Shown: piece by piece, positions 14,164 through 55,566 of the stretch
Numbering within the stretch: the first letter of the stretch is position 1
Layout of the letters: each line of letters starts with the position of its first letter
Origin: a virus
Virus record (IMG/VR): IMGVR_UViG_3300028840_003815
Coordinates: 1-61,424 of that record
Direction: 5' to 3' (one strand)
DNA length: 61,424 nt
The notes under the pieces: model-generated
Told to the model about the DNA's origin: nothing
The model's input: only the letters and a program-made list of their open reading frames with translations
Database searches by the model: none
Program-made: the position numbers and the translations under genes

Positions 14164-14403
14164 ATGTGTCATCGACCTGGAACACCGGCAGAGCAGACAA
14201 TTGAAGTCCCTCTCTCTGCTGTTCCAGCACACTTGGCACATGGCGATCATTTCGGGCCATGTAAACCGCCTAAAGCAGAAGCACCAGCACCAGCACCAGC
14301 CGTTGAACCGGTAACGCCGGAAAATGAAGCACCGACACCGGAATCTATACCAGAACCAGAGATAGCACCTACACCTACACCGGAACCTGAGACAATTATT
14401 TAA
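14164..14403 (+). CDS. CHRP-motif domain with Pro-rich tail; possibly read-through extension of previous gene
   Basis: The segment MCHRPGTPAEQTIEVPLSAV then PAHLAHGDHFGPC is a motif seen in secreted or surface bacterial proteins, usually introduced by KVT(I/L)CHRP. Here the preceding in-frame codons spell LKVT, upstream of the ATG and after the TGA of the previous gene. A GGAGG at 14137-14141 is too far from the ATG but well placed for the CTG at 14152. A Pro/Glu/Thr-rich tail follows. So the unit is either a CTG-started gene or the extension of 13519-14133 by UGA read-through or mutation. Confidence 0.6.
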   Translation: MCHRPGTPAEQTIEVPLSAVPAHLAHGDHFGPCKPPKAEAPAPAPAVEPVTPENEAPTPESIPEPEIAPTPTPEPETII

Positions 14404-14412
14404 GACAATAAG

Positions 14413-14443
14413 AAAAGCCGGGAATTATTACCCGGCTTTTCTT
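14413..14443. terminator. Bidirectional terminator
   Basis: AAAAGCCGGG and CCCGGCTTTT form a 10-bp stem around an eight-base loop, with T-rich sequence on the 3' side, between convergent genes. Confidence 0.72.
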
Positions 14444-25608: not shown

Positions 25609-25839
25609 TCAAGCTCGTGGGCTGTGGATATTATCATAAAAAAACTTTTTAGAGCAATATAGGAAAAGGTTTGTACAGATTCCACAATTGAACACCCTTC
25701 CGCAATAATCACATTTACTCTTCTCTATTTTTTTTATAATTTCCTTAACAGATAATTCTTTCATTCTGCCTCCAATATTGTTTTTTTCAATATCCATATC
25801 TGACAATATTTTATTGAATAGGTCTTTTGCTTTACTCAT
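25609..25839 (-). CDS. Small zinc-knuckle protein
   Basis: A 76-aa protein with SKCDYCGRVFNCGICTNLFL, four closely spaced cysteines, then CSKKFFYD. Two starts are possible: 25839 (overlapping the previous stop) and 25764 (GGAGG four bases upstream). Function unknown. Confidence 0.58.
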   Translation of the reverse strand: MSKAKDLFNKILSDMDIEKNNIGGRMKELSVKEIIKKIEKSKCDYCGRVFNCGICTNLFLYCSKKFFYDNIHSPRA

Positions 25840-26306
25840 TTCTTATTAGCTTCATACCAAGCTTTGCTTCGTGCTTTTATCTTATCCTTATTAGCCTCAT
25901 AGTAAGTTTTTGCTTTATCCTTATTAGCCTCATAGTAAGTTTTTGCTTTATCCTTATTAGCCTCATAATAAGCTTTTGCTTTATCCTTATTAGCCTCATA
26001 ATAAGCTTTTGCTTTATCCTTATTAGCCTCATAATAAGCTTTCTTCCGTGCTTTTATCTTATCCTTATTAGCCTCATAGTAAGTTTTTGCTTTATCCTTA
26101 TTAGCTTCATAGTAAGTTTTTGCTTTATCCTTATTAGCCTCATAATAAGCTTTATTGTAAGCTTTTGCTTTATCCTTATTAGCCTCATAATAAGCTTTTG
26201 CTTTATCCTTATTAGCCTCATAATAAGCTTTCTTCCGTGCTTTTATCTTATCCTTATTAGCCTCATAATAAGCTTTGTTTTTTGCTTTGCGTTCTTCTGG
26301 TGTCAT
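25836..26306 (-). CDS. Repeat protein of YYEANKDK units
   Basis: A 156-aa protein made almost entirely of the unit YYEANKDKAKA (11 residues) with longer units of 14-15 residues (KARKKAYYEANKDKI). It is highly charged and probably one long helix. Similar linkers occur in phage zinc-finger/HNH proteins, where they join an N-terminal zinc knuckle to a nuclease; here both ends are missing. Compare 41194-41706, which keeps the zinc knuckles. The repeats are nearly identical at DNA level, so unit number is likely unstable. Confidence 0.6.
   Translation of the reverse strand: MTPEERKAKNKAYYEANKDKIKARKKAYYEANKDKAKAYYEANKDKAKAYNKAYYEANKDKAKTYYEANKDKAKTYYEANKDKIKARKKAYYEANKDKAKAYYEANKDKAKAYYEANKDKAKTYYEANKDKAKTYYEANKDKIKARSKAWYEANKK
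25846..26280 (-). repeat. Tandem 33-bp coding repeats
   Basis: About ten units built on TTATTAGCCTCATAATAAGC (plus strand) with 33-bp spacing and occasional longer units. They encode the YYEANKDK protein; there are no spacers of unrelated sequence. Confidence 0.85.
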
Positions 26307-30441: not shown

Positions 30442-33041
30442 ATCCATCTTTTAAAAATAAAGTATTAGATTGTTTAAAAAACAGTCAATTTTGGACTCAA
30501 AAGACAAAAGACAATGGCAGTAAAATTTCGGGATTAACTTGTCCTGAGTGCGGAAAAAATGAAGCGTGGGCGTATAGCAAAAGCCCTATGGCTATATTTT
30601 GCAGCAGGGGAAATAAATGCTACGCAAAAACACTGACTTTATCCCTGTTCCCGGAAATCAGACAGAACGTAGAGAGGGATTATCCAGCTACAAAAACAGA
30701 ACCCCATAAACCAGCACTTCATTATTTACAATCCAGAGGGCTTAATAAGAGTCTGGAAGGGCTTGACTTCCAATATTGGAAAAAAACCCGCAAGGGCTGC
30801 GGTGGCGCTGTCATGTTCCCTGTTTCTAAAGATGTTTGGAATGGCCGTTTATTTAACCCAAACGGAAGCGGGAAAAGCCATACAAAAGGGGCGTATGGCG
30901 GAATATTCTGGAAGCATCCGGGAATACAGTATGATTCCGATAAAAAAACGTATGTTACTGAGGGGATTCTTGACGCACTTTCCTTTATAGAGATGGGATT
31001 TCAGGCAATTGCGATTATTTCAGCAGGGCAGACACCTGAAAATATAAAGCTGATTGAGTTTCATAACGTATGGTTAGCTTTTGATAACGATAACGCAGGT
31101 ATAAACGCCCTGAAAAAATGGAAAGATAAATTTCCGGGATACAAGGCTATTCTGCCGGACAAGGGGCAGGATTGGAATGATTTTCTTGCATTGAATGATG
31201 ACAAAGCATCTGAAATTTTTAAGAAAAAGAGTGGGAAATTTCAATTCAATGCAGAGCTGGCATTATCCAAGACTGCCCTTGAATACACAGAAAAGTTTTA
31301 TGGATTTCATAAATTTCTGCCTGGATTATTTCAATTCAATGGCTGTTACTGGATGGCAGGTATTAAGCAAAAGAAAGATGATGTAGAGATTAACGTTTAT
31401 AAATGTTCTGATTTCATCATGAAACCGCTTTATAAGCGATTGTTTATGGAATCTAAACAAACTGCTGAATATAGTTATTACCTACGGGTAACTCCAAAAA
31501 ATGAGAAATCCGTTGATATAACTATATCCGGTAAGGATTTGGCAGTTTTAAATAATACAAGACAAGTTTTTGGATTCAGGGCCGGGGTTTCATGGGTGGG
31601 AGATAATGAAGCCTTGACAAAATTACAGGAAAAAATCAGGCGCGCAAAGATTCAGGAAATCAAAATTGTTGATAATGTAGGATATAATGACGGTTGTTAT
31701 ATCCATTCCCATTTTATGATTGATGAGCGTGGAAATTTTCATTTACCGGATAAAATCGGAATAATCAAAAGTTTTGAACCGTTTGAAGCTGAGGACGCAT
31801 TAAAGCCACTTTCTGAACCTGTTTTAAATGCTCAAAAAGTGCAAAATATGATTTACAAAGCATGGGGAAATCAAGGTCTTGTGGCTATGGCTTGGACAGT
31901 TGCTTCGTGGTTCCGGTCTCAGATTCTTGAATCAGCCGGTTTTTTTCCGTTTTTATCGTTATATGGCGACCCCCAAACCGGCAAAAGTAACTTGATAAAG
32001 CTTTTACAGCATTGTCAGGGGTTCAGAAATGAAGGACATGGACTAAAAAAGGCTGATACAATCAAATTTATTGCTCGGTCTATCGCTCAAAGAAGCAATC
32101 TGTTTTATGCAATTCTGGAAGAACAGGGAAAACATGATAGTAAATTTGATTATCCAGGTATTATCCTGACTGGATATAATGGGAGCAGTATTCAGGGCCG
32201 TGCAGCTTTTTCAAATAATAACAAAACTCAATCCAGCCCGCTTGAGTGCGGAATAGTTTTTGTACAAAATTTTGAGCCATTCACAACCCAACAGGAAAAA
32301 GAAAGAGTTTTTTCTGTTCCATTCCGGATATCCCAGCTTTCAGAACAATCCTTTACAGCATTCAGGGAGCTTTTAAAGTATCAACCTGCTGCATTTTTAC
32401 AGGTTTTTATAGATGTCATGTTAAATAAGCAGGTTATTGAATCTGACTGGTTTGAAAGATTTAATATTCTAAGAGATGAGTTTATTCAGACTCTCCATGA
32501 CAACCGACTTGCTGAAGTATCGGCTATACTTATGACTTTTCATAATATTCTTTGTGCTATTACCGGCAATAATTTTGATATTAAGGATTACATATTACAG
32601 CTTACAAGAGAAAAGCAGGTGAATAAATCAAATGATTTGCCAGAAGCGGATATGATCCTTGATTATATTTATACAAATGCAGAAAAAGATTTAAGTCAAT
32701 TTGTAAAAATTGACTTACAAAACAGTCTTTTATGCTTCCACTGGGTTTCAGTGAAACAGCATGTTGAATCTTTCAGAGGGTTAAAACAGAGTGAAATTGT
32801 TAAGCAATTCAAGCGGCATGAGGCTTTCAACGCATGTAATAAAACTGTTAGATATGGCGATAATACATATAAATCATATGTATTTGATATTGAAAAAATG
32901 TCATGTGCTGTGAATTCTGGCTCTAACAATTGCTTTAATTGTGAATGGATTTACAGGGAAAATGGGATATTTACATGCCTAAAACACAATGGATCATCCA
33001 TTGAATCAGTGGTAGATTGTCAGCATTTTGAGCAATCATAA
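30438..33041 (+). CDS. Primase-helicase (zinc finger, Toprim, P-loop)
   Basis: An 867-aa protein. Residues of about 35-63 hold a zinc finger (CPECGKN ... FCSRGNKCYAK). A Toprim-like part follows with TYVTEGILDALSFIEMG (catalytic Glu about 175) and VWLAFDNDNAG (DxD near 205-209). The C-terminal half has a P-loop (LSLYGDPQTGKSNLIK, about 507-522) and further ATPase-like segments. This is the layout of phage DNA primase-helicase fusions that load at the origin. The candidate origin lies directly downstream. The very C-terminus has a Cys cluster (CFNCEWIYREN, FTCLKH). Confidence 0.85.
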   Translation: MNPSFKNKVLDCLKNSQFWTQKTKDNGSKISGLTCPECGKNEAWAYSKSPMAIFCSRGNKCYAKTLTLSLFPEIRQNVERDYPATKTEPHKPALHYLQSRGLNKSLEGLDFQYWKKTRKGCGGAVMFPVSKDVWNGRLFNPNGSGKSHTKGAYGGIFWKHPGIQYDSDKKTYVTEGILDALSFIEMGFQAIAIISAGQTPENIKLIEFHNVWLAFDNDNAGINALKKWKDKFPGYKAILPDKGQDWNDFLALNDDKASEIFKKKSGKFQFNAELALSKTALEYTEKFYGFHKFLPGLFQFNGCYWMAGIKQKKDDVEINVYKCSDFIMKPLYKRLFMESKQTAEYSYYLRVTPKNEKSVDITISGKDLAVLNNTRQVFGFRAGVSWVGDNEALTKLQEKIRRAKIQEIKIVDNVGYNDGCYIHSHFMIDERGNFHLPDKIGIIKSFEPFEAEDALKPLSEPVLNAQKVQNMIYKAWGNQGLVAMAWTVASWFRSQILESAGFFPFLSLYGDPQTGKSNLIKLLQHCQGFRNEGHGLKKADTIKFIARSIAQRSNLFYAILEEQGKHDSKFDYPGIILTGYNGSSIQGRAAFSNNNKTQSSPLECGIVFVQNFEPFTTQQEKERVFSVPFRISQLSEQSFTAFRELLKYQPAAFLQVFIDVMLNKQVIESDWFERFNILRDEFIQTLHDNRLAEVSAILMTFHNILCAITGNNFDIKDYILQLTREKQVNKSNDLPEADMILDYIYTNAEKDLSQFVKIDLQNSLLCFHWVSVKQHVESFRGLKQSEIVKQFKRHEAFNACNKTVRYGDNTYKSYVFDIEKMSCAVNSGSNNCFNCEWIYRENGIFTCLKHNGSSIESVVDCQHFEQS

Positions 33042-33063
33042 TCTAAGTCGTTGTAAATATTCA

Positions 33064-33312
33064 CTTGTTACCTTTTTGTTACCTTTTTTTGAATAGGTAA
33101 CAAAAAGGTAACACTCTAAGCTGTTAAAAATATTACATTGTTACCTTGTTACCTATGTTACCTGATATATGTATGTATATATGTGCGAGCCTATATGTTT
33201 TTATTTATATATGTAGTGAAAAATCAGGTAACATAGGTAACAAGGTAACAATGTAATATTTTTAACAGCTTAGAGTGTTACCTTTTGTTACCTTTTTTGA
33301 AAAAGGTAACAT
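33064..33312. other. Candidate replication origin: long inverted repeat with GTTACC words
   Basis: Positions 33103-33166 and 33223-33286 are a perfect 64-bp inverted repeat around a 56-base A+T-rich centre. Within 33067-33310 the word GTTACC or its inverse GGTAAC occurs 13 times. A nested perfect inverted repeat (33067-33083 with 33096-33112) extends the left side. It lies between the primase-helicase and RecD-like helicase genes, with no coding frame of its own. Iteron-like words, dyad and an A+T-rich centre are common marks of phage origins; the role is inferred. Confidence 0.72.
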
Positions 33313-33349
33313 TTTTAAAAGGCAATTTTTAGAGAAAGGAATCTATTTT

Positions 33350-35428
33350 ATGAATGAAATAGAGGGAGTTATACAGCAAATCAGGGGGCCATACGGAAAA
33401 GGTAACAACTGGTTTATCATGACATTGAAAGATGGACAAATGGTAACAGGCTGCAAACCCAGTCATATTGCAATTGGTGATAATTGCAAATTTACAGGAA
33501 ATTATAAAGAGAGCAAATACGGTCAGCAGTTTGCAGCTTCACAATTCAGCGTGTCTATGCCTAAAGATATGGCCGGGATTCTGGAATATTTAAAAAGACA
33601 CATGCCTGGAATCGGAAATAAAACTGGTAGAGCGATTGTTCAGCATTTCAGAGAAAATATATTTTCCATTCTGGATAATGAACCTGAACGACTTGCAGAA
33701 ATCAGGGGAATATCACAGAAAAAGGCCGAAAAAATAGCGGAAGTATACAAAGAGATAAAAGCCAGGCAAGATATGGATATATTTTATGCTGAAAATGGTA
33801 TTACTGCAAATTTGAGAGCAAGATTTGTTGATGCTTTAGGTGATGATGACAGTTTTATTATCAGACAAATTAAAAAGAATCCATACGGGCTTATTGAAAG
33901 AGTAGACGGATTCGGATTTATGACTGCTGACAGAATATTTCTGTCAATCAATAATACTGATATGGAAAATTCTTACCGGATTAATGCAGGTATTTCGCAC
34001 ACATTGAGAGACGCTGAAAATCAAGGACATTGTTATTTACTGGAAGCTGAACTTTTTAAGAAGGCAAGCAAATTATTATCAGTCTCAATAGAATCTGTCA
34101 TTGAAGCGTTTAAAGCTGATAGATTTGAAATTGAAGGTAATAGAGTTTACAATGATGATTTGTATTTTGCTGAAAAATCTGTATCTGAGAAGCTTAAACA
34201 GATGCTTTCTTGTCATAATTATATGGAAATTAATGATATATCACAGAAAGATTTTTTAGATTTATCGCCAGACCAGCAACAGGCTTTCCGATTTGCCACT
34301 AAAAATAAAGTCTGCATTATTACGGGCGGGCCTGGAACTGGCAAAACTCATATGCTTAAAATGTTATTGCAAGCCTTTTCTGAATTAGAAGTGGCGTTAG
34401 CAAGTCCGACCGGGAAAGCAGCAAAGAGGATGCAGGAGAGTACAGGGAAGCAGGCTTTTACTATTCATAGGCTTTTAAAATACAGACCATTTGAAGGATT
34501 TCAGCATAATGAAAAGAATCAACTTGAATATGATGTTGTTATTATAGATGAAAGCAGTATGATTGATATCCGGCTTTTTTCAGCTTTATTAAAAGCTATA
34601 CCGATAGATAGCCGGGTTGTCATTGTAGGAGATGCCGATCAGTTGCCAAGTGTGGGGCCGGGGCGGTGTCTTGCTGATATGATTAAGGCCAGGGTTCCTA
34701 CTGCAATGTTGACAACATTACATAGACAGGAATCAGGATCATTGATTGATTTAAATGCTCAAAAGATTAATAACGGGCAAGGTATTCGAGGAGGCAATAT
34801 AAAATCAGATTTTATATTCTGTATTGAAGAAGACCCGGAAACACTGGCAGACAGAATTGTAAAAGCCTGTAAATATTACATTGATGACAATCCGCAGGTA
34901 CTTTGCCCACAAAAAAAGGGGGTTATCGGAGTTTTTAATCTTAATGAACGGCTGCGTAATGAGGTTTTTAACCCGGATGGTGAACCGGTTCCAGGAACTT
35001 TTTTCAGGCTTGGTGATAGGGTTATTCAGCTTCGGAATAATTATAATCTGGAAATCTTTAATGGTGATATTGGAATAATCACAGGTATACATGAAGATAA
35101 GGACAAGCAGGTATTTATCAAAATCGAGTTTGACACTGGGCCGGTTTTATATCCGAAACATATGATTGACGACTTACAACTTGCATACGCATTGACAATC
35201 CACAAGAGCCAAGGCAGTGAATTTCATACTATAATTATGCCGGTACACACTCAAAATTATATTATGTTAAAGCGTCAATTGCTTTATACCGGTATCACAC
35301 GAGGCAAAAAGCGTGTTGTGTTAATTGGGACTGAGAAAGCCGTAAATCTGGCTATTAAAATGCCCGATACTTCGGTTAGATATTCAGCTTTGGCTGAAAG
35401 AATTAAAAAAGAAAGGAAAATAGATTAA
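33350..35428 (+). CDS. RecD2-like helicase
   Basis: A 692-aa protein starting at the ATG behind AGAGAAAGGAA; an earlier reading from 33275 would run through the inverted repeat. N-terminal OB-like part (EGVIQQIRGPYGKGNNWFIM), helix-hairpin-helix (MPGIGNKTGRAIVQHF), Walker A CIITGGPGTGKTHMLKM (about 323-338), Walker B VVIIDESSMIDI, GDADQLPSVGPGRCLADM, and the C-terminal LAYALTIHKSQGSEFHTIIM and YTGITRGKKRVVLIG. This is superfamily 1 RecD2/TraA-type 5'-3' helicase. It probably works in replication or recombination with SSB. Confidence 0.92.
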   Translation: MNEIEGVIQQIRGPYGKGNNWFIMTLKDGQMVTGCKPSHIAIGDNCKFTGNYKESKYGQQFAASQFSVSMPKDMAGILEYLKRHMPGIGNKTGRAIVQHFRENIFSILDNEPERLAEIRGISQKKAEKIAEVYKEIKARQDMDIFYAENGITANLRARFVDALGDDDSFIIRQIKKNPYGLIERVDGFGFMTADRIFLSINNTDMENSYRINAGISHTLRDAENQGHCYLLEAELFKKASKLLSVSIESVIEAFKADRFEIEGNRVYNDDLYFAEKSVSEKLKQMLSCHNYMEINDISQKDFLDLSPDQQQAFRFATKNKVCIITGGPGTGKTHMLKMLLQAFSELEVALASPTGKAAKRMQESTGKQAFTIHRLLKYRPFEGFQHNEKNQLEYDVVIIDESSMIDIRLFSALLKAIPIDSRVVIVGDADQLPSVGPGRCLADMIKARVPTAMLTTLHRQESGSLIDLNAQKINNGQGIRGGNIKSDFIFCIEEDPETLADRIVKACKYYIDDNPQVLCPQKKGVIGVFNLNERLRNEVFNPDGEPVPGTFFRLGDRVIQLRNNYNLEIFNGDIGIITGIHEDKDKQVFIKIEFDTGPVLYPKHMIDDLQLAYALTIHKSQGSEFHTIIMPVHTQNYIMLKRQLLYTGITRGKKRVVLIGTEKAVNLAIKMPDTSVRYSALAERIKKERKID

Positions 35429-35916
35429 TGGCAGGAATGTTAAAAGGCATTATTATTGGCAATCTTGGAGGCAATCCAGAACTTAAATACGGACAAGACG
35501 GGCTTGCACGGTGTCATTTCTCTGTTGCTTGCAATGAAAAAGTTAAGGGTGAAGACAGAACGGAATGGATACGGGTTACGGTATTCGGTAAACTGGCAGA
35601 AATATGCAGCCAATATCTTTTTAAAGGTAAACAGGTTTATCTTGAAGGCAGGCTTCAGACAAATACATGGGAAGATCAACAGGGGCAGTCCAGGTTTTCA
35701 CTGGAAATGGTTGCAAATAATATGGTAATGCTTGGGACAAAAGCGGATAATGGACAGGGCGGCGGTTATCAAGGCCGGCAGGGAGGCTACCAGCAGAATT
35801 CGTATAACCAGCCGCAGCAGGGAGGAAGCGGTTATCAGCCTACCCCACCCATACCGCAGGGACACCAGCAGTTACCGGAACAGCCTCCGGTTGATAATGA
35901 TGATATTCCATTTTAG
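35428..35916 (+). CDS. ssb: Single-stranded DNA-binding protein
   Basis: A 162-aa protein with a bacterial SSB OB fold (KGIIIGNLGGNPELKYGQDG, RCHFSVACNEK, TEWIRVTVFGKLAEICSQYL, KGKQVYLEGRLQTNTW), a Gly/Gln/Pro-rich linker, and the acidic tip DNDDIPF that binds partner proteins. Start overlaps the helicase stop (TAATG). Protects and organises ssDNA at the fork. Confidence 0.95.
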   Translation: MAGMLKGIIIGNLGGNPELKYGQDGLARCHFSVACNEKVKGEDRTEWIRVTVFGKLAEICSQYLFKGKQVYLEGRLQTNTWEDQQGQSRFSLEMVANNMVMLGTKADNGQGGGYQGRQGGYQQNSYNQPQQGGSGYQPTPPIPQGHQQLPEQPPVDNDDIPF

Positions 35917-35970
35917 ATTTATTGATAAATGGCTTAACATATCATCATAAAATTTACATCATTTTTATAC

Positions 35971-35999
35971 TTGACACATAAAAATGATGTTGCTATAAA
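35971..35999 (+). promoter_or_regulatory. Promoter for the first leader-RNA cassette
   Basis: TTGACA, 17 bp, TATAAA. The predicted transcript start (about 36005-36008) falls exactly at the first base of the three-way-junction leader, so the structured RNA would form the 5' end of the transcript. Confidence 0.75.
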
Positions 36000-36008
36000 G
36001 AAAATACT

Positions 36009-36072
36009 TTCAGGGATAGATTTCGGGTAGCTCCCGGAATTGATAAGCCGGTATTCACGAACCGGCTTCCCT
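36009..36072 (+). ncRNA. Three-way-junction 5' leader RNA, copy 1
   Basis: AGGGA pairs with TCCCT to close the element. Inside, CGGG/CCCG forms one hairpin (loop TAGCT) and AAGCCGGT/ACCGGCTT a second (loop ATTCACGA). Followed by CTCTTTACGTGAAAGGAG and the KilA-N gene's ATG at 36122. Copies 2 and 3 lie upstream of two other genes. A riboswitch, attenuator or RNA-stability role is inferred. Confidence 0.62.
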
Positions 36073-36121
36073 TAAAAACCTCACTCGTGAAATCTTTACT
36101 CTTTACGTGAAAGGAGCTTTT

Positions 36122-36787
36122 ATGAAAACCGAAGTTATTATGTATCGGCCTTTTCTTACTTTTCAAGTTCGGCAAATGTCAAAATGTGAATTTTTGAATT
36201 GCAATGATGCACTTAAGGCTGTCAATGTTATTCGAATTGCTAATGGAAAAAGTGAAAAACGCCTTGATAAGTTTTTTGAAAATGACCATTCAGAATATTT
36301 AGAGGCTCTTTGTAAGTATTTGAATCAAGACAATATTTTAATTCCCCAGAAAAATGGGGAATTAAAACCTACTGATTTAATTATAGTAAAAAAGGGTCGC
36401 TATGGCGGGACTTGGTTGCATCCGTATTACTATACGAAATTTGCCAGATGGCTTTCTCCTGAATTTGAGGCTGCTGTTGATATATGGATAACAGATAACT
36501 TGCTCATGTTTCGGAATAATGGCGGCGATTCTTTTAAATTTCTAAATCGTATTCTTGATTCAAAATTTGAGATTGGTTCAAAATATTGGGAATATGCAAA
36601 GGTCGCAAAGTTTGTGCAAATTACAGTTTTTGGACATGAAGGGAATGATCTTTGGAACTTTGCAAATCAGGAACAACTTGCAAAAAGAGAACGCATTTTA
36701 ATTGAAATCGAAGCCGCTGCAAAGTATGGTAATTTTTCAAGCCTTGATGATCTTCTTGATTCTGTGGAAATCTCAATAAATAAATAA
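36122..36787 (+). CDS. KilA-N domain protein
   Basis: A 221-aa protein. Residues of about 75-125 (KPTDLIIVKKGRYGGTWLHP, YYYTKFARWLSPEFEAAVDI, WITDNLL) are the hallmark of the KilA-N DNA-binding domain. N-terminal half (FLNCNDALKAVNVIRIANGK) completes it. The start at 36122 follows GAAAGGAGCTTTT; an upstream GTG at 36107 is not needed. It is the first gene behind the structured leader and may act on the shared leader/palindrome sites; that is inference. Confidence 0.88.
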   Translation: MKTEVIMYRPFLTFQVRQMSKCEFLNCNDALKAVNVIRIANGKSEKRLDKFFENDHSEYLEALCKYLNQDNILIPQKNGELKPTDLIIVKKGRYGGTWLHPYYYTKFARWLSPEFEAAVDIWITDNLLMFRNNGGDSFKFLNRILDSKFEIGSKYWEYAKVAKFVQITVFGHEGNDLWNFANQEQLAKRERILIEIEAAAKYGNFSSLDDLLDSVEISINK

Positions 36788-36839
36788 CCGGATGCAAGCC
36801 GGAATAATATCCGGGGTGCAGTTCAAAAGGATATAAAAA

Positions 36840-37223
36840 ATGGAAAATAATGTCTTTGTTGTAGATGGCCTAACAAATAAATTTTTTTTATCGGTAGATT
36901 GTTTTTTATGTTTCATTAATCCTATAATGCAAGACACGGAAAAACTTGCAAGAACGGCGCACATTCCACAATTTAAATGGGAAGATGAAAAAGACTCTTT
37001 TATCCCCCTTGATATAGCTGAACGAGAAATAAAGGAAGAGTTAAAACATTGTGATACAAATTTTCAGGATTTATTTTATGAAATTTTAAATATTTTTAAT
37101 GAAATGAGAGATACATGTGAATTTAGTTTAAAGGGAAATTATTCTTATGTGTCCGCTCTTTTAAAGGCTTATCCAGATTTCAAAAATCATAAAATGTATA
37201 AAAAATATTATACTAAACTTTAA
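36840..37223 (+). CDS. Unknown protein (127 aa)
   Basis: Acidic, mixed alpha/beta with aromatic residues (FFLSVDCFLCFINPIMQDTE, NFQDLFYEILNIFNEMRDTC). AAAAGGATATAAAAA lies before the ATG. The stop is followed one base later by parS-like palindrome 1. Function unknown. Confidence 0.6.
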   Translation: MENNVFVVDGLTNKFFLSVDCFLCFINPIMQDTEKLARTAHIPQFKWEDEKDSFIPLDIAEREIKEELKHCDTNFQDLFYEILNIFNEMRDTCEFSLKGNYSYVSALLKAYPDFKNHKMYKKYYTKL

Positions 37224-37224
37224 T

Positions 37225-37240
37225 TGTTCTACGTGGAACA
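37225..37240. repeat. parS-like palindrome, site 1
   Basis: TGTTCTACGTGGAACA, a 16-bp dyad with one imperfect pair. It differs from the bacterial parS consensus (TGTTTCACGTGAAACA) at few positions. Starts one base after a stop codon and ends four bases before leader copy 2. Confidence 0.65.
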
Positions 37241-37243
37241 TTT

Positions 37244-37306
37244 CAGGGATAGATTTCGGGTAGCTCCCGGAATTGATAAGCCGGTATTCACGAACCGGCT
37301 TCCCTG
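37244..37306 (+). ncRNA. Three-way-junction 5' leader RNA, copy 2
   Basis: CAGGGA/TCCCTG close the element; CGGG/CCCG and AAGCCGGT/ACCGGCTT form the inner hairpins. Nearly identical to copy 1 over the whole element. Followed by CTCTTTACGTGAAAGGAG and the pentapeptide gene. Confidence 0.65.
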
Positions 37307-37360
37307 GAATCCTTCTTATCGTGAATCTCTATAACTCTTTACGTGAAAGGAGTCCAAAAA

Positions 37361-37954
37361 ATGATTGATCTTCTTAAAGAATCGGTAGATAAATTTAATT
37401 CATTCAGACAAGAAAATCCTGAGATAAAAATTGACTTTCAGGGGGTAGATTTACAGGGTATGAATCTCCAGAATGTTGACCTGCAGGGTGCGAATCTCCA
37501 GAATGTTGACCTGCGATATACAGACCTTCAGAATGCGAAGCTCGAAAATGCTGATCTCCGATGTACATCTCTTAGATATGCAGACATTCAGAGGGCAAAC
37601 CTTAGATATGCTAAGCTCTCTGATGCTGACCTTCGTGGTGCTGACCTCAGTCATACTATTCTTCTAAGGGCAGACATTAGAGATGCGGATCTCCGGTATG
37701 TTGATCTCCATAATGCTGATCTCAGTCATGCAGACATCAGGGGAGCCGTTTTAGATTTCTCTTGCATCCCTTTATCCTGCAAAACAACTGGGATAATCGT
37801 TGATGACAGATTTATTGCTCAACAGTTATTTTATTTAACACGGCAAAATACAAAATATTGTTCCGGTGGGGTTCAAGAAGCCATTGAACATATAAAAGAT
37901 ATGGCGGTCTCTGATTTGTTTTGCGAATACCGTAATGATATTTCTCGATTATAA
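37361..37954 (+). CDS. Pentapeptide-repeat protein
   Basis: A 197-aa protein. Residues of about 28-135 are A(D/N)LxxA-type pentapeptide repeats (NLQNVDLQGANLQNVDLRYT, ADLRGADLSH, ADIRDADLRYVDLHNADLS), forming a right-handed beta helix. The C-terminus is helical (GGVQEAIEHIKDMAVSDLF). Some members mimic DNA and inhibit gyrase (Qnr, MfpA); phage roles are mostly unknown. The start at 37361 follows AAAGGAGTCCAAAAA. Confidence 0.88.
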   Translation: MIDLLKESVDKFNSFRQENPEIKIDFQGVDLQGMNLQNVDLQGANLQNVDLRYTDLQNAKLENADLRCTSLRYADIQRANLRYAKLSDADLRGADLSHTILLRADIRDADLRYVDLHNADLSHADIRGAVLDFSCIPLSCKTTGIIVDDRFIAQQLFYLTRQNTKYCSGGVQEAIEHIKDMAVSDLFCEYRNDISRL

Positions 37955-37958
37955 AAAT

Positions 37959-37974
37959 TGTTCCACGTAGAACA
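37959..37974. repeat. parS-like palindrome, site 2
   Basis: TGTTCCACGTAGAACA, the reverse complement of site 1, four bases after the pentapeptide stop and three bases before leader copy 3. Confidence 0.65.
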
Positions 37975-37977
37975 TTT

Positions 37978-38039
37978 CAGGGATAGATTTCGGGTAGCTC
38001 CCGGAATTGATAAGCCGGATTAATGCACCGGCTTCCCTG
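37978..38039 (+). ncRNA. Three-way-junction 5' leader RNA, copy 3
   Basis: CAGGGA/TCCCTG close the element; CGGG/CCCG and AAGCCGG/CCGGCTT form hairpins. The loop of the second hairpin (ATTAATGCA) and its top pair differ from copies 1 and 2 while the stem is kept. The downstream sequence to the ATG at 38107 is unrelated to the other copies. Confidence 0.63.
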
Positions 38040-38106
38040 ATATCTCTCACCATGAGGGGTTATGAACTTCATGAGTTGCCAAAAACATTAAGGGGAAATA
38101 TTCATA

Positions 38107-38385
38107 ATGAAATGGTATCAGTGTGATATTATCAAAAAGTCAGGGGATATTAAGTTTTGGTGCAGGTTTATCGCTCATGATGCCCAAGATGCTGAAAAAC
38201 GCATTGAAACACTTTTAAAAAAAACTTTAACTGGGAGTATAAAAAATAAAGCCTACTTGTTTGCGGCTAAAAGATACATTGATGATTTTAGGATTACAGC
38301 CGTACCGGAAAATATTTTGGCAATGTATGACTTAAATAAATCTTCAGATGTGGATTTGTTTTATGTGAAAGGCAAGGAGGGTTAA
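38107..38385 (+). CDS. Small unknown protein, distant member of the AEN family
   Basis: A 92-aa protein. WYQCDIIKKSGDIKFWCRFI then AHDAQDAEKRIETLLKK has a strand-A(H/E)x(A/N)xxA-helix layout like the 11-kb small-protein family, with weaker similarity. AAGGGGAAATATTCATA precedes the ATG. Third gene with the structured leader. Confidence 0.58.
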   Translation: MKWYQCDIIKKSGDIKFWCRFIAHDAQDAEKRIETLLKKTLTGSIKNKAYLFAAKRYIDDFRITAVPENILAMYDLNKSSDVDLFYVKGKEG

Positions 38386-38392
38386 AAAGTTC

Positions 38393-38516
38393 TTGACATA
38401 TGATACACGTTAGTATAGTATACCAAACATAAGTTTTTTTTGCCAAAATAATTCAACATTGGGTGTGGACTTATTTTGTCGGGGGGCGTTCCATAGGGGA
38501 GCGCTCCCTTTTTTTT
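38393..38516 (+). ncRNA. Promoter-to-terminator short transcript unit
   Basis: TTGACA at 38393 with TAGTAT 17 bp downstream starts a transcript that meets a G+C-rich hairpin with T8 at 38481-38516, with no ORF in between. It could be a small RNA of about 95 nt or an attenuated leader for the next genes. Confidence 0.5.
38481..38516 (+). terminator. Terminator/attenuator
   Basis: GGGGGCG and CGCTCCC pair (one G-T) around a 13-base loop, followed by an uninterrupted run of eight T residues. Another TTGACA follows at 38519. Confidence 0.7.
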
Positions 38517-38562
38517 GCTTGACAGAGTTAAAGCTTTAGTATAACTTGACAATGTCATACTA

Positions 38563-38870
38563 ATGGTTTTTCAAAAAGTTGGAATAAAAATAGTTATTAT
38601 CCTAATGGTAAAGAAAAATTTGGTGTTTCATTAAAATATAAATTTTTAGAATATTTGGGTAAGGGGTGGTATCGTCCAGATTTTGCTCCGGTAGACTATT
38701 CAATAACAACACAACATTCTGACATTAAAGATATTATTAACAAGTGGAGAAAAAGATTAGATCGTAAAGTGGCTTTTGCAATATATAAAAATTGGGGATT
38801 TTTTAAAAAATATCAAATTGAAAGCATAACTGTCTTAAAAAACAAAATTGAAACGGGAGAATTACTATGA
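38563..38870 (+). pseudogene. Frameshifted or 5'-damaged gene upstream of the DUF262 gene
   Basis: The coding frame reads SKSWNKNSYYPNGKEKFGVS, then KFLEYLGKGWYRPDF and IINKWRKRLDRKVAFAIYKN up to a stop overlapping the next ATG (ATGA). It has no in-frame start except a TTG at 38655. A good ATG at 38563 is one base out of frame; adding one A to the A5 run at 38573-38577 would join them. It is either a recent frameshift, a sequencing error in the homopolymer, or programmed. Confidence 0.5.
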
Positions 38871-39331
38871 CTATAAAGAATTTGGAATCAAGTATTCCTG
38901 CAAATAATGAAAAAATTATTGAGATATACAAAAAAGTAAAGGCTGGACAACTTGATCATAGTCCTGACTTTCAAAGAAAACTTGTTTGGAAAAAGCAACA
39001 TAAAATTAATTTTATAAAAACTATACTGCTTAATTATCCTTTCCCGGAGATATATAAAGCACCAGGAGATTTGAATGTTGATGATTTAGAATTGACAGAT
39101 TTGATTGTTGATGGCCAGCAAAGAGTAAATGCGATTGTAAATTTTATTGATTCTAAAGATGTTTTCGCCTTACCTAAAACATCTTTAAAATTTACAAATC
39201 TTACCAAAAAAGAAAAAGAAGATTTTCTGAATTATGAAGTTTCTGTACGTTATTTGAAAAATGCTGATAAAGCACAAATAAAAGAAATTTTTCAGCGAAT
39301 AAACAATACAGATATGACATTGTCAAGTTAA
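38867..39331 (+). CDS. DUF262-like protein, truncated
   Basis: A 154-aa protein. IIEIYKKVKAGQLDHSPDFQ then RKLVWKKQHKINFIKTILLN and LIVDGQQRVNAIVNFIDSK are the DUF262 hallmarks (ParB/Srx-like fold, FQRxxVW and DGQQR). It ends at RINNTDMTLSS, where the family usually continues (TLSxxE). DUF262 is found in GmrS/BrxU-type restriction enzymes and in phage proteins. The C-terminal part is missing, so it may be inactive. Confidence 0.75.
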   Translation: MTIKNLESSIPANNEKIIEIYKKVKAGQLDHSPDFQRKLVWKKQHKINFIKTILLNYPFPEIYKAPGDLNVDDLELTDLIVDGQQRVNAIVNFIDSKDVFALPKTSLKFTNLTKKEKEDFLNYEVSVRYLKNADKAQIKEIFQRINNTDMTLSS

Positions 39332-39366
39332 AGTGCTGGAACATATTCCAAAGCTTATAAAATAAT

Positions 39367-39382
39367 TGTTCTACGTGGAACA
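39367..39382. repeat. parS-like palindrome, site 3
   Basis: TGTTCTACGTGGAACA, same orientation as site 1, upstream of the small frameshifted gene at 39405. Confidence 0.65.
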
Positions 39383-39404
39383 TTTTTAAAAGGAATAAAG
39401 CTAA

Positions 39405-39594
39405 ATGTGTAAACATATAGAATCAAAAACTTGCTGGTGTAATCCCACTGTTGAAGACTATTCAAAAAAAAAAGAAAGTTAATTTCTGCTGGCATTGTGG
39501 TCGAAAACTTCAAGGAAATCATCGTGTTGAAAAGTTTATAGATGGTGAAATAAGAACACTCCATAAACAATGTGCTAAAAATTGTTCCACGTAG
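39405..39594 (+). pseudogene. Small zinc-knuckle gene split at an A10 run
   Basis: ATG with AAAAGGAATAAAG before it gives MCKHIESKTCWCNPTVEDYS then stops soon after an A10 run (39464-39473). The next frame continues KKVNFCWHCGRKLQGNHRVE ... HKQCAKNCST and stops inside palindrome site 4. One A fewer would make a single 62-aa zinc-knuckle protein. It is a frameshift mutation, a homopolymer error, or programmed slippage. Confidence 0.5.
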
Positions 39595-39598
39595 AACA
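39583..39598. repeat. parS-like palindrome, site 4
   Basis: TGTTCCACGTAGAACA, same as site 2, overlapping the stop of the split gene and just upstream of the dCTP deaminase ribosome site. Confidence 0.65.
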
Positions 39599-39616
39599 TT
39601 TTTAAAAGGAGTAAAA

Positions 39617-40132
39617 ATGATACTATGTGATTTAGAAATTAAAGAAATGGCTCAAGCCGGTATGATTGAGCCATTCTCTATAAAAAATCTTAATCCCGCA
39701 AGCTACGATCTTACACTTGGGGATAAATTCAGAGTACCGGAATCCGGGGGCTGGTCTGATGAAGTCCATATGCCAGAAGCAGGTATTGATCTTGATGTTT
39801 TCCCCTTTATCCTCGCTCATTCTCTTGAATACCTGAACATGCCTGATAATATAGCAGCTATGCTATATAGTAAAAGCACTGCCGGCCGCAAAGGGATTGA
39901 GCATTCTCACGCCGGATTTATTGATCCAGGATTTCCAGGGCAACTGACTTTTGAAGTTAGTTGCCTATGGCCTTTTAAGCGGATTATAAAACCCGGTAAT
40001 AAATTATTCCAGATTGTATTTTTCAGAATGTCCGGGAAGCCGGAAAAGAATTATATGGAAAAATCTGATTCTCATTATGTAAATCAGTCCGGAGCCACTG
40101 CTAATTATGATAATGGAAGGAGCAGTTTATGA
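39617..40132 (+). CDS. dcd: dCTP deaminase / dUTPase-family protein
   Basis: A 171-aa protein. NLNPASYDLTLGDKFRVPES near 24-43, AAMLYSKSTAGRKGIEHSHA then GFIDPGFPGQLTFEV near 90-120 are the dCTP deaminase/dUTPase signatures. It deaminates dCTP to dUTP and/or hydrolyses dUTP, feeding ThyX with dUMP. The start is set by AAAAGGAGTAAAA. Bifunctionality cannot be told from sequence. Confidence 0.88.
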   Translation: MILCDLEIKEMAQAGMIEPFSIKNLNPASYDLTLGDKFRVPESGGWSDEVHMPEAGIDLDVFPFILAHSLEYLNMPDNIAAMLYSKSTAGRKGIEHSHAGFIDPGFPGQLTFEVSCLWPFKRIIKPGNKLFQIVFFRMSGKPEKNYMEKSDSHYVNQSGATANYDNGRSSL

Positions 40133-40476
40133 AATTTAGGAATTTAACAGATTGTACTATCGAAGTAGTTAATCATTTGTCCGGTGAAACTGTTTTATTT
40201 ATAGAACCTGAATACATTGGATTGGATGTAATAAAAAAAGCTATCCATGTCGATTCTGTCCATGTAAAAGATATTCCATTTTTCAAAATATACCATAAAG
40301 TTAATGGCTTACCAGAGCCTCAAGCCGATACAATGTTAATTGTACCGTATGATTTTTTTATGTTAGTATCAGATAGGTATGATATTTGTTGCCCAGATAC
40401 ATGGCCTGAAGCACTGAGCGGGGTTCATGGAAATGTGTTTAAGGCTAATGGGTTTCAGGTTCATCATGTCAAATAA
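40129..40476 (+). CDS. Unknown protein (115 aa)
   Basis: Starts in an ATGA overlap with the dcd stop. Mixed alpha/beta (FRNLTDCTIEVVNHLSGETV, ADTMLIVPYDFFMLVSDRYD). Repeated occurrence next to nucleotide genes in phages is possible, but no function is recognised. Confidence 0.6.
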   Translation: MKFRNLTDCTIEVVNHLSGETVLFIEPEYIGLDVIKKAIHVDSVHVKDIPFFKIYHKVNGLPEPQADTMLIVPYDFFMLVSDRYDICCPDTWPEALSGVHGNVFKANGFQVHHVK

Positions 40477-40798
40477 TAATATAAAGCCCTCAGTATGTCC
40501 AAAATGCTGGAAAAAAACATTATATAAGTTTTCAAGCAATGATATGTATTGTGATAGTTGTGGCTTTACATGCCCTGAAATAATAGAAATAGACAGAGAT
40601 CGTATTAATTTAATTTCTGAAATGGATGAAACACAAAAAGATTTTTTTGCAATCGGGCTTGCGTTTCATTCTGTATGGATGACAGACAAAGCTTTAAAAC
40701 GAGGCGAAAAAAATGTGCATCCAAGCGATATTAAATGTATGGAAATAATTGTAAGCCTATTGAATAAATACGGATTAAGTCATTCTTTAGGTGGTTAA
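40466..40798 (+). CDS. Zinc-ribbon unknown protein
   Basis: A 110-aa protein with a zinc ribbon: SVCPKCWKKTLYKFSSND then YCDSCGFTCPEI. The rest is helical (ETQKDFFAIGLAFHSVWMTD). Start chosen at 40466 just after AGGTTCATC. Function unknown. Confidence 0.62.
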   Translation: MSNNNIKPSVCPKCWKKTLYKFSSNDMYCDSCGFTCPEIIEIDRDRINLISEMDETQKDFFAIGLAFHSVWMTDKALKRGEKNVHPSDIKCMEIIVSLLNKYGLSHSLGG

Positions 40799-40851
40799 AA
40801 AATGGCGTGACAATAGATTTAATACAGAGTATTATATTTTATATTAAATAT

Positions 40852-40895
40852 AAATGGATTGATATACCACGAAAAAAGGGTGTATTAATCCATTT
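40852..40895. other. Long A+T hairpin
   Basis: AAATGGATT(G)ATATACC and GGTGTAT(T)AATCCATTT form a stem of about 16 bp around a ten-base loop. It lies in the 395-bp gap between 40798 and 41194. Confidence 0.5.
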
Positions 40896-40970
40896 ATAGC
40901 GGATAAAACATGGTGTTTAATCTGGTTCCCCAACCGATTTAAATTCGTTTTTGTCTGCAAAACTTCTTAA

Positions 40971-41027
40971 AAACCGGGTTTATTCAAGGTGTTGGCGCAC
41001 CTTAGTGAGTCCGGTTTTTTTATTTTT
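40971..41027 (+). terminator. Nested-stem terminator
   Basis: AAACCGG/CCGGTTT outer stem encloses AAGGTG/CACCTT and is followed by a T-run of seven. It ends the cargo transcript. Confidence 0.68.
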
Positions 41028-41033
41028 TTATAC

Positions 41034-41175
41034 TTGACATTCAAATATGAATCCTGTATATATATTTACAGTAATTGGGAGCTTTCTGTTTTTATTTCAT
41101 AAAGATTTTTTCCTTTTGAGTGTTAATGTTAAGAAAGGGGGATGGTGCGCAGGGCATCACCCCCTTTTCTTTTTG
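41034..41175 (+). ncRNA. Promoter-to-terminator short transcript unit
   Basis: TTGACA, 17 bp, TATATA (41034-41062) starts a transcript that reaches a strong hairpin (GGGGG.TGGTGC/GCATCACCCCC, 41137-41164) plus T-rich tail without an ORF. It resembles the unit at 38393-38516 in layout. Small RNA or attenuator for 41194. Confidence 0.52.
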
Positions 41176-41193
41176 TAAGGATATTGATAAAAA

Positions 41194-41706
41194 ATGATTT
41201 GCCGTAATTGTGGTGTAGAATCAGAGTTTTATAAGGGTAGACGAGTCTGTAAGGCTTGTGTTCGCAAAAAACATCAAGCATATAGAAGCCGTCCTGATGT
41301 TAAAGAGAGACAAAAAGAATACCATAAAGAGTACAAAAAACGGCCTGAAGTTAGAGAAAAAAGAAAAAAATATATTCAAAAATATAATCAACGCCCTGAA
41401 GTTAAAGAAAAAATAAAAATATATAAAAGAGAATATGAAAAACGCCCTCATGTTCTTAAATATAGGCAGGAATATAGAAACCGGCCTGAAGTTAAAAAGA
41501 GAGCTGCGGAAATGAGAGTTAAACCTAAAAAAGTTAAAATCAAAAAAGACCCCTTTCATTTTAAAAAATATATTGACAATGGCAGAAAATGCAGATTGTG
41601 TAATGAAAACACTCAGGGAAATTGGTTTTATTGTCCTGTATGTTATAAAAAAGTTTGTAAAAAAACTAATTATGCCGAAACTGATAACAATACTGCGGAG
41701 ATTTGA
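41194..41706 (+). CDS. Repeat-linker zinc-knuckle protein (HNH-like family)
   Basis: A 170-aa basic protein. N-terminal knuckle CRNCGVESEFYKGRRVCKAC, then about six RPEVKEK/KKY-type repeats (residues of about 30-105), and a C-terminal knuckle (KCRLCNENTQ, FYCPVCYKKVCKK). The layout of knuckle-repeat helix-knuckle recalls phage HNH-related proteins, but an HNH active site is not evident. Compare 25836-26306. Confidence 0.6.
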   Translation: MICRNCGVESEFYKGRRVCKACVRKKHQAYRSRPDVKERQKEYHKEYKKRPEVREKRKKYIQKYNQRPEVKEKIKIYKREYEKRPHVLKYRQEYRNRPEVKKRAAEMRVKPKKVKIKKDPFHFKKYIDNGRKCRLCNENTQGNWFYCPVCYKKVCKKTNYAETDNNTAEI

Positions 41707-41726
41707 CCAGACTTAATAAATAATAC

Positions 41727-41756
41727 TTGACATTTTATTGATTTTTTTGATAGATA
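41727..41756 (+). promoter_or_regulatory. Promoter for the late virion operon
   Basis: TTGACA, 18 bp, TAGATA. The predicted start falls within a few bases of the ATG at 41765, so the transcript may be almost leaderless. Confidence 0.58.
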
Positions 41757-41764
41757 TAAATATT

Positions 41765-42886
41765 ATGATTGGATATCCTCAAATAACGCTTCCATCCGGG
41801 AGCGAAAATCAAATTTTAGCTTTTAACGGTTCTGGACAATTACAAGTCTTTAGCTTATTTGACGGAGCCGGGAAAATAGACGCTCAATACCTTCCTGATA
41901 TAACAATTACTACAACACATGTGGTTACGAGCGAGGCTGCGCAAATACTTCTTACTGTTCAAGAGGGTGATGTTGCTATAAGAACAGACTTGAATAAGTC
42001 ATATATTGCACTCAATTCTGATAATTTAGATATGGAAGACTGGCAAGAATTATTATCACCATTGGATTCTGTATCTTCTGTTTTCGGAAGAACAGGAAAT
42101 GTAATTGCTGAAAATAATGATTATACGTGGGCGCAGATTAATAAAACAACATCTTCTCTTGCTGATATTACCACAAAAAATCATTCTGATTTATCCGGGA
42201 TAACTACTAATATTCATACTCCTGTGGATGCCGGTACAGCCGATTACAATACTCTTGTATGGGATAATGATAATCAGAAATTTATCCCTAACAATGTTTT
42301 AAGTGTTGATTTTGATAATAAAAAAATAAAGCTGAAATATTCTGATAGCATTTATACTGACATATTCACTGATAGCGATGGTTATTCTTATATTGAGCCT
42401 CTTGGAGGGGAATTATTTTTAAAATCAGATAATACAGCTCTTGGGCATAAATTATTAAATATTATAGGGCCGAGACCGGCTATTTATCAGGAAGTTCAGC
42501 GCAGTGCCGGAGGATTCGCTTTTTATACAAATCAGCTTTATGCTAAAAATACAAATACTTTATTAACGGCGAAAATGGCAGAAATTGGGGTATACGGAGA
42601 TGTACAATCTGGAGAGAACCCGCCGTCATTAACTTATTTTTATATTGCGACTCAAACAGAAGATTATTCCAATGCGTCATTTAAAATTTATTCAGACTAT
42701 TTTAATTTAAATAAAAATTTAGGCGTTGGAATGTCTAATTTCGCTAATGGGCAAAAAGTAGTAGGGATTGGTAACGGAACAGCGCCCACCGGAACGCCTT
42801 CCGGAGGAGGTCTGTTATATGTTGAAGCCGGTGCATTAAAATATAAAGGCTCATCTGGAACTATAACAACAATTGGGGTAGCATAG
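41765..42886 (+). CDS. Fibre/structural repeat protein
   Basis: A 373-aa protein. The [20 protein letters not shown] segment (about 110-130) is the hallmark of a repeat in many phage tail-fibre and structural proteins; VSSVFGRTG is its core. The C-terminus ([20 protein letters not shown]) is another widely shared fibre ending. The start at 41765 is an ATG without ribosome site; an earlier TTG (41738) would place the start upstream of the -10 box. First gene of the late operon. Confidence 0.75.
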
Positions 42887-55550: not shown

Positions 55551-55566
55551 TGTTCTACGTGGAACA
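55551..55566. repeat. parS-like palindrome, site 5
   Basis: TGTTCTACGTGGAACA. Flanks (AAAA left, ATTAAA right) match the other sites in reverse orientation. It lies 16 kb from the other four, between two tail genes. Confidence 0.65.

Follow-up and report, generated by a model that had tools for sequence, protein, structure and literature searches.

The 61,424-nt viral record IMGVR_UViG_3300028840_003815 (positions 1 to 61,424; "the window" below) contains three copies of a structured RNA leader, each 60–61 nt long and all on the + strand, in front of three unrelated genes. Comparison with relatives suggests a 5′ leader RNA that acts in cis, belongs to a divergent branch of an int-alpA-like superfamily, and probably serves as a translational switch on the gene behind it (a probability of about 0.65 in our estimate). 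The fold, the complementarity of one hairpin loop (L3) to two alternative downstream sites (AL1 and AL2), the palindromes in a second loop (L2) and the position at the mRNA 5′ end are supported by the sequences; what we infer from them is which way the switch works, that leaders dimerise in the cell, and the signal. The leaders and their putative pairing sites are as follows.

36012–36072, + strand: leader copy 1, a three-way junction (P1/P2/P3), with covariation seen in relatives
36012–36016/36068–36072, + strand: P1 of copy 1
36019–36027/36033–36041, + strand: P2 of copy 1
36028–36032, + strand: L2 of copy 1 (UAGCU)
36042–36045, + strand: junction J23 of copy 1 (GAUA)
36046–36052/36061–36067, + strand: P3 of copy 1
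36053–36060, + strand: L3 of copy 1
36085–36091, + strand: AL1 of copy 1 (TCGTGAA), 7 bp with L3
36106–36111, + strand: AL2 of copy 1 (CGTGAA), 6 bp with L3; abuts the Shine-Dalgarno region (AGGAG, 36112–36116)
37245–37305, + strand: leader copy 2, anatomy as copy 1
37319–37326, + strand: AL1 of copy 2 (TCGTGAAT), 8 bp with L3
37342–37347, + strand: AL2 of copy 2 (CGTGAA), 6 bp with L3; abuts the Shine-Dalgarno region
37979–38038, + strand: leader copy 3, L3 recoded (ATTAATGCA)
38086–38091, + strand: AL2 of copy 3 (CATTAA), 6 bp with L3; directly before a GGGG Shine-Dalgarno sequence

A stretch of 41 bases is invariant across the three copies (36011–36051, 37244–37284 and 37978–38018), and the 27-base leader core occurs three times in the window, compared to 0 expected from 100 shuffles. 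Copies 1 and 2 are identical across 65 nt. Folded by itself, each copy gives a three-way junction (−27.3 to −29.8 kcal/mol, z-scores of −3.5 to −4.6), in which P1 (AGGGA/UCCCU) is followed by the junction UA, a 9-pair P2 with the loop UAGCU, the junction GAUA, and a P3 of 7 pairs that is stacked directly on P1. Within the element, copy 3 differs from the other two only at the top of this second hairpin, where P3 is reduced to 6 pairs. An earlier note on this DNA, made from the letters alone, had described three repeated leaders, a three-way junction, and a second hairpin that keeps its stem in copy 3 while its top changes; all three descriptions hold, with the boundaries refined to those listed above.

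L3 has two putative targets. The loop sequence AUUCACGA of copies 1 and 2 is complementary to UCGUGAA(U), located 12 nt past P1, and also to the CGUGAA that immediately precedes the Shine-Dalgarno sequence. L3 of copy 3 reads AUUAAUGCA, and the bases before the Shine-Dalgarno sequence have become CAUUAA, complementary to UUAAUG; loop and AL2 have thus been recoded together within one genome. The earlier note had reported that copies 1 and 2 share ACTCTTTACGTGAAAGGAG near the ribosome site and that CTTT/AAAG could mask the site. The sharing is real, but the CTTT/AAAG hairpin is not needed for masking because the P3 loop can pair there, and the complementarity of CGTGAA to this loop is a better explanation of the shared sequence. 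Neither the two alternative L3 targets nor the palindromic P2 loop was reported in that note.

Relatives were sought among viral contigs with sequence patterns and covariance models. Pattern 1, in which the stems were free (AGGGATA N9 TAGCT N9 GATAA), returned 10 viral loci, three of which (L005, L006 and L008) proved genuine when their stems were checked for complementarity; their elements and the three window copies were combined into covariance model R1. In the source alignment of this model (6 sequences, 5 of them distinct, aligned without structure), 11 of 21 pairs are altered at both positions, compared to 1–6 with the partners slid. R1 also detected a second element on the L008 contig. 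A looser pattern gave 56 loci, and R1 applied to the 53 new ones found 11 credible elements in 9 loci. Pattern 3, with both loops and everything downstream left free (AGGGATAR N12–26 GANAAG N14–30 CTTCCCT), gave 73 loci, 67 of them new, and elements were accepted in 55 of those. The 82 records listed include four doubtful ones (L204, L153, L205:9589 and L207:1777), which were excluded before all counts; the remaining 78 represent 61 distinct element sequences, the window's two among them. Covarying copies thus exist outside the window. In 60 model-aligned matches (alignment A3), 94.5% of the cells pair and 18 of the 21 pairs change on both sides, with the alignment being fitted to its own model. 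P1 itself varies with compensation (AAAGA/UCUUU, GGGGA/UCCCC, CAGGA/UCCUG). The elements in L112 and in L218, a locus of a Bacillota genome, were first revealed by model R2, in which neither L2 self-complementarity nor the downstream sites are scored.

Two model matches were rejected. The match at window positions 14390–14442 is a terminator-like hairpin (AAAAGCCGGG/CCCGGCTTTT) mimicking P3-P1; it was kept in A3, so its own R2 score is inflated. L082 was dropped at 13.7 bits.

The family was tested for both L3 pairings using 58 dereplicated elements, with an AL1 zone 6–28 nt after P1, an AL2 zone around the start codon, match thresholds of at least 12 (AL1) and at least 11 (AL2), and L3 swapped among elements as the null. 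AL1 is good in 55 of 58 elements (swap mean 7.6, maximum 16; 1000 swaps). AL2 is good in 43 of the 52 with a usable start (mean 14.5, maximum 24; 1000 swaps), a count that scores elements with a TAnnTTTG promoter, missed by the automatic start call, as lacking AL2. Both sites are good in 42 elements (mean 6.0, maximum 14; 1000 swaps), and two separate L3 sites are present in 50 of 58 (mean 6.9, maximum 13; 300 swaps). Of the 41 pattern-3 elements, 40 have a good AL1 (swap mean 5.7, maximum 13), and in 22 of these 40 it begins 11 or 12 nt past P1, the overall range being 8–21 nt. In the elements with TAnnTTTG promoters, AL2 is not at a Shine-Dalgarno sequence, yet it persists just before the start codon, where CTTCGAC, CTTCAGC and CTTCTGC covary with the L3 sequences GTCGAAG, GCTGAAG and GCAGAAG, respectively; in L147, L167 and L172, AL2 takes in the AUG. 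The two elements first revealed by R2 have the same arrangement: L3 matches AL1 with 8 bp and AL2 with 6 bp in L112, and each site with 7 bp in L218. Since the same L3 bases serve both pairings, L3-AL1 and L3-AL2 are expected to be mutually exclusive. Judged by complementarity alone, the element has the exclusive pairing, exposing or hiding the ribosome site, that characterizes translational riboswitches.

The second loop is palindromic throughout most of the family. Self-complementarity is kept through sequence change in L2, with a palindrome of at least 4 nt in 39 of 41 distinct loops (shuffle mean 19.2, maximum 28; 5000 shuffles) and of at least 6 nt in 26 of 41 (mean 4.3, maximum 13). The palindromes include TAGCTA, TAATTA, TGATCA, TCATGA, TTGCAA, TCGCGA, TTCGAA, GTCGAC, GAGCTC and CTGCAG; the L2 loops of L112 and L218 have 6-nt palindromes, TCGCGA and TTGCAA respectively. 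The early search patterns contained TAGCT or TANNT, and the test was repeated on the pattern-3 elements, in which L2 was left free: 30 of 31 loops have a palindrome of at least 4 nt and 18 of 31 one of at least 6 nt, compared to shuffle means of 14.4 and 3.0 and maxima of 24 and 11 (10000 shuffles). L3 loops, as a control, reach 10 of 36 and 0 of 36. The loop is too short for its palindrome to fold on itself and its self-complementarity is kept despite sequence change, which argues for pairing between two copies and points to L2 as a candidate kissing-loop dimer interface.

Copy 1 is preceded by a strong match to a promoter.

35971–35999, + strand: sigma-70-like promoter of copy 1, TTGACA-17-TATAAA (6/6 and 5/6 matches)

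Its −10 box ends 12 nt before AGGGA, so that copy 1 is likely to form the 5′ end of its mRNA, as the earlier note had proposed, and many relatives are alike in this. Our consensus scanner demands a T at the sixth base and so passes over this promoter; it found no + strand promoter-like site in the 100 nt that precede copy 2 or copy 3. In the family, a promoter-like box, defined as TATAAT (at least 5/6 matches, 2–16 nt upstream) or TAnnTTTG directly upstream, precedes 41 of 58 elements (shuffle mean 20.5, maximum 30; 300 shuffles). Promoters of the TAnnTTTG type occur in Bacteroidetes phages. The TATAAT-like box is most often 6 nt from the element, a distance at which transcription would start at the element, and elements with a promoter-like box thus likely sit at the 5′ end of the mRNA.

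The genes behind the three window copies are unrelated.

36122–36787, + strand: KilA-N domain gene behind copy 1 (PF04383, E = 1.3e-12)
37361–37954, + strand: pentapeptide-repeat gene behind copy 2 (PF00805, E = 1.4e-40)
38107–38385, + strand: 92-aa open reading frame (ORF) behind copy 3, without a Pfam match

The ORF between the KilA-N and pentapeptide genes (36840–37223) has no leader of its own. The earlier note's view that conservation lies in the leader and not in the encoded protein is supported. In the family, the cargo is mostly homing-endonuclease-like or replication genes. Among 60 downstream proteins, 24 match the PHROG "HNH endonuclease" (phrog_559), 15 the treble-clef domain DUF4379, 6 GIY-YIG and 7 a replication initiation PHROG. 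Examined protein by protein (58 of the 60), 24 have nuclease- or NUMOD-type matches, several below Pfam's own cut-off, 8 further ones match DUF4379, CapR or DUF723, and some have no match; no ORF could be called behind the element in 5 of the 78 accepted records. Other cargo comprises RepA_N (L006), DnaD-like loaders (L191), glycosyltransferases (L174, L185), an integrase (L197), KilA-N and pentapeptide-repeat proteins. Among 41 relatives of the L008 endonuclease, only those of L112 and L113 carry the leader, which is therefore optional for such genes.

The window has no match to Rfam 15 at curated cut-offs, and its region 35900–38150 gave nothing relevant at E≤5. Its best score against the int-alpA family RF02996 is 12.3 bits (37987–38058), below the 35.8-bit cut-off and out of register. 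However, two relatives found with the window-derived model or its patterns, L113 (50.8 bits) and L150 (46.9 bits), pass that cut-off. The earlier note had not recognised the leader as a known riboswitch or ribozyme. The window indeed falls under every Rfam cut-off, but the element is not wholly unknown: these two relatives place the window in a divergent branch of an int-alpA-like superfamily and not in RF02996 itself. Of 25 element-bearing loci scanned at the Rfam cut-off, these are the two that pass RF02996 and 23 do not; in the window and 29 loci, the only matches at cut-off are RF02996 (L113, L150, L214–L217) and HEARO (L008, outside the element). The int-alpA RNA, reportedly described by Weinberg et al. 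in 2017, is an orphan motif of Rfam type "Gene; sRNA". Its consensus has the linkers UA, GAAAA and CU; an AGGG some 10 nt beyond P1 is also conserved and is complementary to CCUU in L3. In the window, UA is the same, GAUA replaces GAAAA and CU is absent; 13 of the 61 elements can be parsed in the form that has a 5-nt junction and CU. A downstream site complementary to the third-hairpin loop is present in window copies 1 and 2 (7–8 bp). The window neighbours are SSB, KilA-N and pentapeptide genes; the leaders do not lie between integrase and alpA-like genes.

Four int-alpA copies from Escherichia coli chromosomes and Klebsiella phage P12620-1 were compared.

2496–2562 of locus L214: int-alpA copy
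2480–2547 of locus L215: int-alpA copy
2496–2561 of locus L216: int-alpA copy
2480–2547 of locus L217: int-alpA copy

Three E. coli chromosomes have int-alpA between an integrase gene and a hypothetical gene, whose start codon is 16–20 nt beyond the element, with a gene for a helix-turn-helix regulator further on; the Klebsiella phage has the same int-alpA sequence before an ORF. In these genomes int-alpA reads as a 5′ leader of the next gene, not as a free-standing small RNA gene. Three of the copies have L3-AL1 scores of 15, 15 and 13 and L3-AL2 scores of 10.5, 10.5 and 13. R2 recognizes the four weakly (E = 7e-4 for L215 and L217, 0.13–0.21 for L216 and L214). PMC12370729 lists int-alpA simply as a small RNA. 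In the int-alpA literature consulted, which does not cover the original paper, no description of an L3-AL2 site or of a palindromic L2 was found.

The proposed mechanism is as follows. The three-way junction would present L3. Pairing of L3 with AL1, a decoy located mostly 11–12 nt after P1, would leave the ribosome site free (the putative on state), while pairing with AL2, a site overlapping or adjoining the Shine-Dalgarno sequence or start codon, would hide it (the putative off state). The palindromic L2 would let two leaders join as a kissing dimer, and dimerisation would likely shift the balance with leader concentration, and hence with phage copy number; alternatively, the input could be a small ligand or a protein at the conserved junction. 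The phage elements would thereby restrain homing endonucleases, replication initiators and other cargo. Of these inputs, dimerisation through L2 is the one we prefer, at least as a contributor, since it accounts best for the palindromes. The stronger proposal, that the leaders count themselves, with L2 kissing moving L3 between decoy and ribosome site without ligand or protein, is tentative, and we consider it rather doubtful in this full form.

Several observations weigh against a translational switch with a dimer input. Support for the mechanism is comparative throughout. The search patterns preset AGGGATA, GANAA and the ends of P1 and P3, so that conservation there was partly selected; with the core fixed in the scans, its conservation is overstated and divergent members are missed. 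The A3 alignment includes one false match (window:14390), and since the elements are related to each other, the shuffle tests somewhat overstate significance. No AL1 was found in the 6–28 nt zone after P1 in window copy 3, L085 and L184, and 9 of 52 elements have no good AL2 in the zone tested, some probably through a wrong choice of start; two of the three scored int-alpA copies fall just under the AL2 threshold of 11. The AL2 null is high because Shine-Dalgarno bases are, in part, easily complemented. The mean score is higher for AL1 (15.0) than for AL2 (13.5), which suggests that the default state would be on unless AL1 is blocked. The window L2 has just a 4-nt palindrome (AGCU), L2 is not palindromic in L175 and in L113 as parsed, and the E. 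coli int-alpA copies L214 and L216 have GACG tetraloops, which are not palindromic by eye.

A ligand-sensing riboswitch is a possible, though in our view less probable, interpretation of the same data. The GGAUA/GANAA junctions would bind a small molecule or ion, with the L3-AL1 pseudoknot as the bound form, AL2 as the expression platform, and the palindromic L2 as a side feature. The junction bases are indeed conserved beside highly variable helices (in part imposed by the search patterns), one core precedes unrelated genes, and the pseudoknot distance is fairly fixed. However, the downstream genes share no common metabolism, no Rfam riboswitch matched at cut-off in the window and 29 loci, and the retention of L2 palindromes despite sequence change is left unexplained. 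A phage or host protein that binds the junction or P2 and toggles translation, like phage autorepressors, is unlikely. Protein-bound operators are well known in phage leaders, as described for T4 gp32 and gp43 in PMC3014915, but the present element occurs in phages with promoters of both the Bacteroidetes and the sigma-70 type, and before unrelated genes, so that the protein would need to be near-universal, and the loop sequences vary. The Rfam type of int-alpA would fit a trans-acting small RNA, processed off the leader and using L3 as antisense on other messages; we regard this as quite improbable, since L3 matches the start region of its own downstream gene, anew in each element, and both partners are recoded in copy 3. 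A recombination or insertion site that shuffles cargo with a promoter and hairpin, without a switching role, would account for the presence, within a single genome, of near-identical copies in front of unrelated genes, and for more than one accepted copy in the window and in 7 loci, but is very improbable, as such a DNA cassette has no need for RNA-type covariation with G-U pairs, L3-AL covariation or an mRNA 5′-end position. A self-cleaving ribozyme was dropped in the absence of an Rfam match, and simple 5′ end protection because it leaves L3-AL2 unexplained.

With a translational switch as the preferred interpretation, the orphan int-alpA motif gains a testable function and a larger family, most scanned members of which are uncaught by Rfam models. 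It also suggests that mobile genes of phages infecting different bacteria use one common RNA device for self-restraint. If the leaders do count themselves, translation of endonucleases and replication initiators would track the number of mRNA, phage or plasmid copies. If dimerisation is real, the leader would represent a natural RNA able to gauge its own abundance, useful as a part for synthetic dosage control as well.

Other searches gave the following results. Exact matches to a 26-mer in viral contigs and to a 25-mer in genome contigs were absent, as were megablast matches of window 33000–42000 to phages; a locus search with the KilA-N and primase proteins confirmed no relatives, and in tblastn searches of phages (22 records for primase, 65 for KilA-N) all relatives were below 60% identity. 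A widened TAGCT pattern gave 20 loci, two of them real in our reading and neither new; genome contigs gave 6 loci, none of them real. R1 produced only weak matches at E≤1 in 5 genomes (best E = 0.006). With strict filters (E≤1e-4), R1 had no match in 398 Bacillota genomes, and R2 one match in 398 Bacillota and none in 395 Bacteroidota genomes. R2 also found none in T4, SPO1, SPBc2, Lactococcus AM1, Staphylococcus PMBT8 and vB_SepM_BE06, and Clostridioides ES-S-0173-01 (0/7), and no leader was matched when the leader regions were compared with phages and plasmids by BLAST.

Other features were observed near the leaders or elsewhere in the window. The near-palindrome TTCTACGTGGAA, or its reverse complement, occurs five times (37227–37238, 37961–37972, 39369–39380, 39585–39596 and 55553–55564), compared to 0.33 core occurrences expected in the window; four copies lie inside a longer TGTTC..GAACA, and each precedes, at a short distance, a gene start or one of leader copies 2 and 3. 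The sequence resembles bacterial parS, and the repeats could be an operator or a ParB-type site. The 154-aa ORF at 38867–39331 matches the N-terminal GmrSD domain (PF03235, E = 9.5e-20) and is possibly a truncated gene, and the ORF at 25836–26306 consists of near-tandem YYEANKDKAK repeats. Outside the window, the viral contig L008, which carries two leaders, also has a HEARO RNA at 1–175 (RF02033, 86.8 bits). The identical leaders of L085 (3335–3394) and L089 (13135–13194) have a promoter-like box, and neither AL1 nor a callable ORF behind them; they look like a decayed cassette.

The leader resembles several known systems in part. The int-alpA RNA has a similar general layout, with P1, UA, short P2 hairpin, GAAAA, P3, CU, P1, and then AGGG facing L3; the window differs in its long P2, GAUA junction, lack of CU, and phage cargo instead of an integrase-flanked position. 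PeSL cassettes of T4-type phages are mobile units of a promoter and stem-loop repeated before unrelated phage genes. The combination of promoter and stem-loop before unrelated genes is thus alike, whereas the three-way junction, decoy pairing and palindromic loop are not known from PeSL. In the T4-type homing endonucleases I-TevI, mobE and segB, leader structures hide the Shine-Dalgarno sequence, according to PMC3014915. Here, too, leader structure would restrain translation of phage homing endonucleases, but the T4-type structures, as described there, are local to the ribosome site, with no three-way junction, decoy or common sequence.

In kissing-loop dimers of the retroviral type, a hairpin loop carries a 6-nt palindrome flanked by purines, and L2 loops of the AAGUCAUGAG type have the same composition. 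The difference is one of setting: the candidate dimer would form in the mRNA leader of a bacterial virus.

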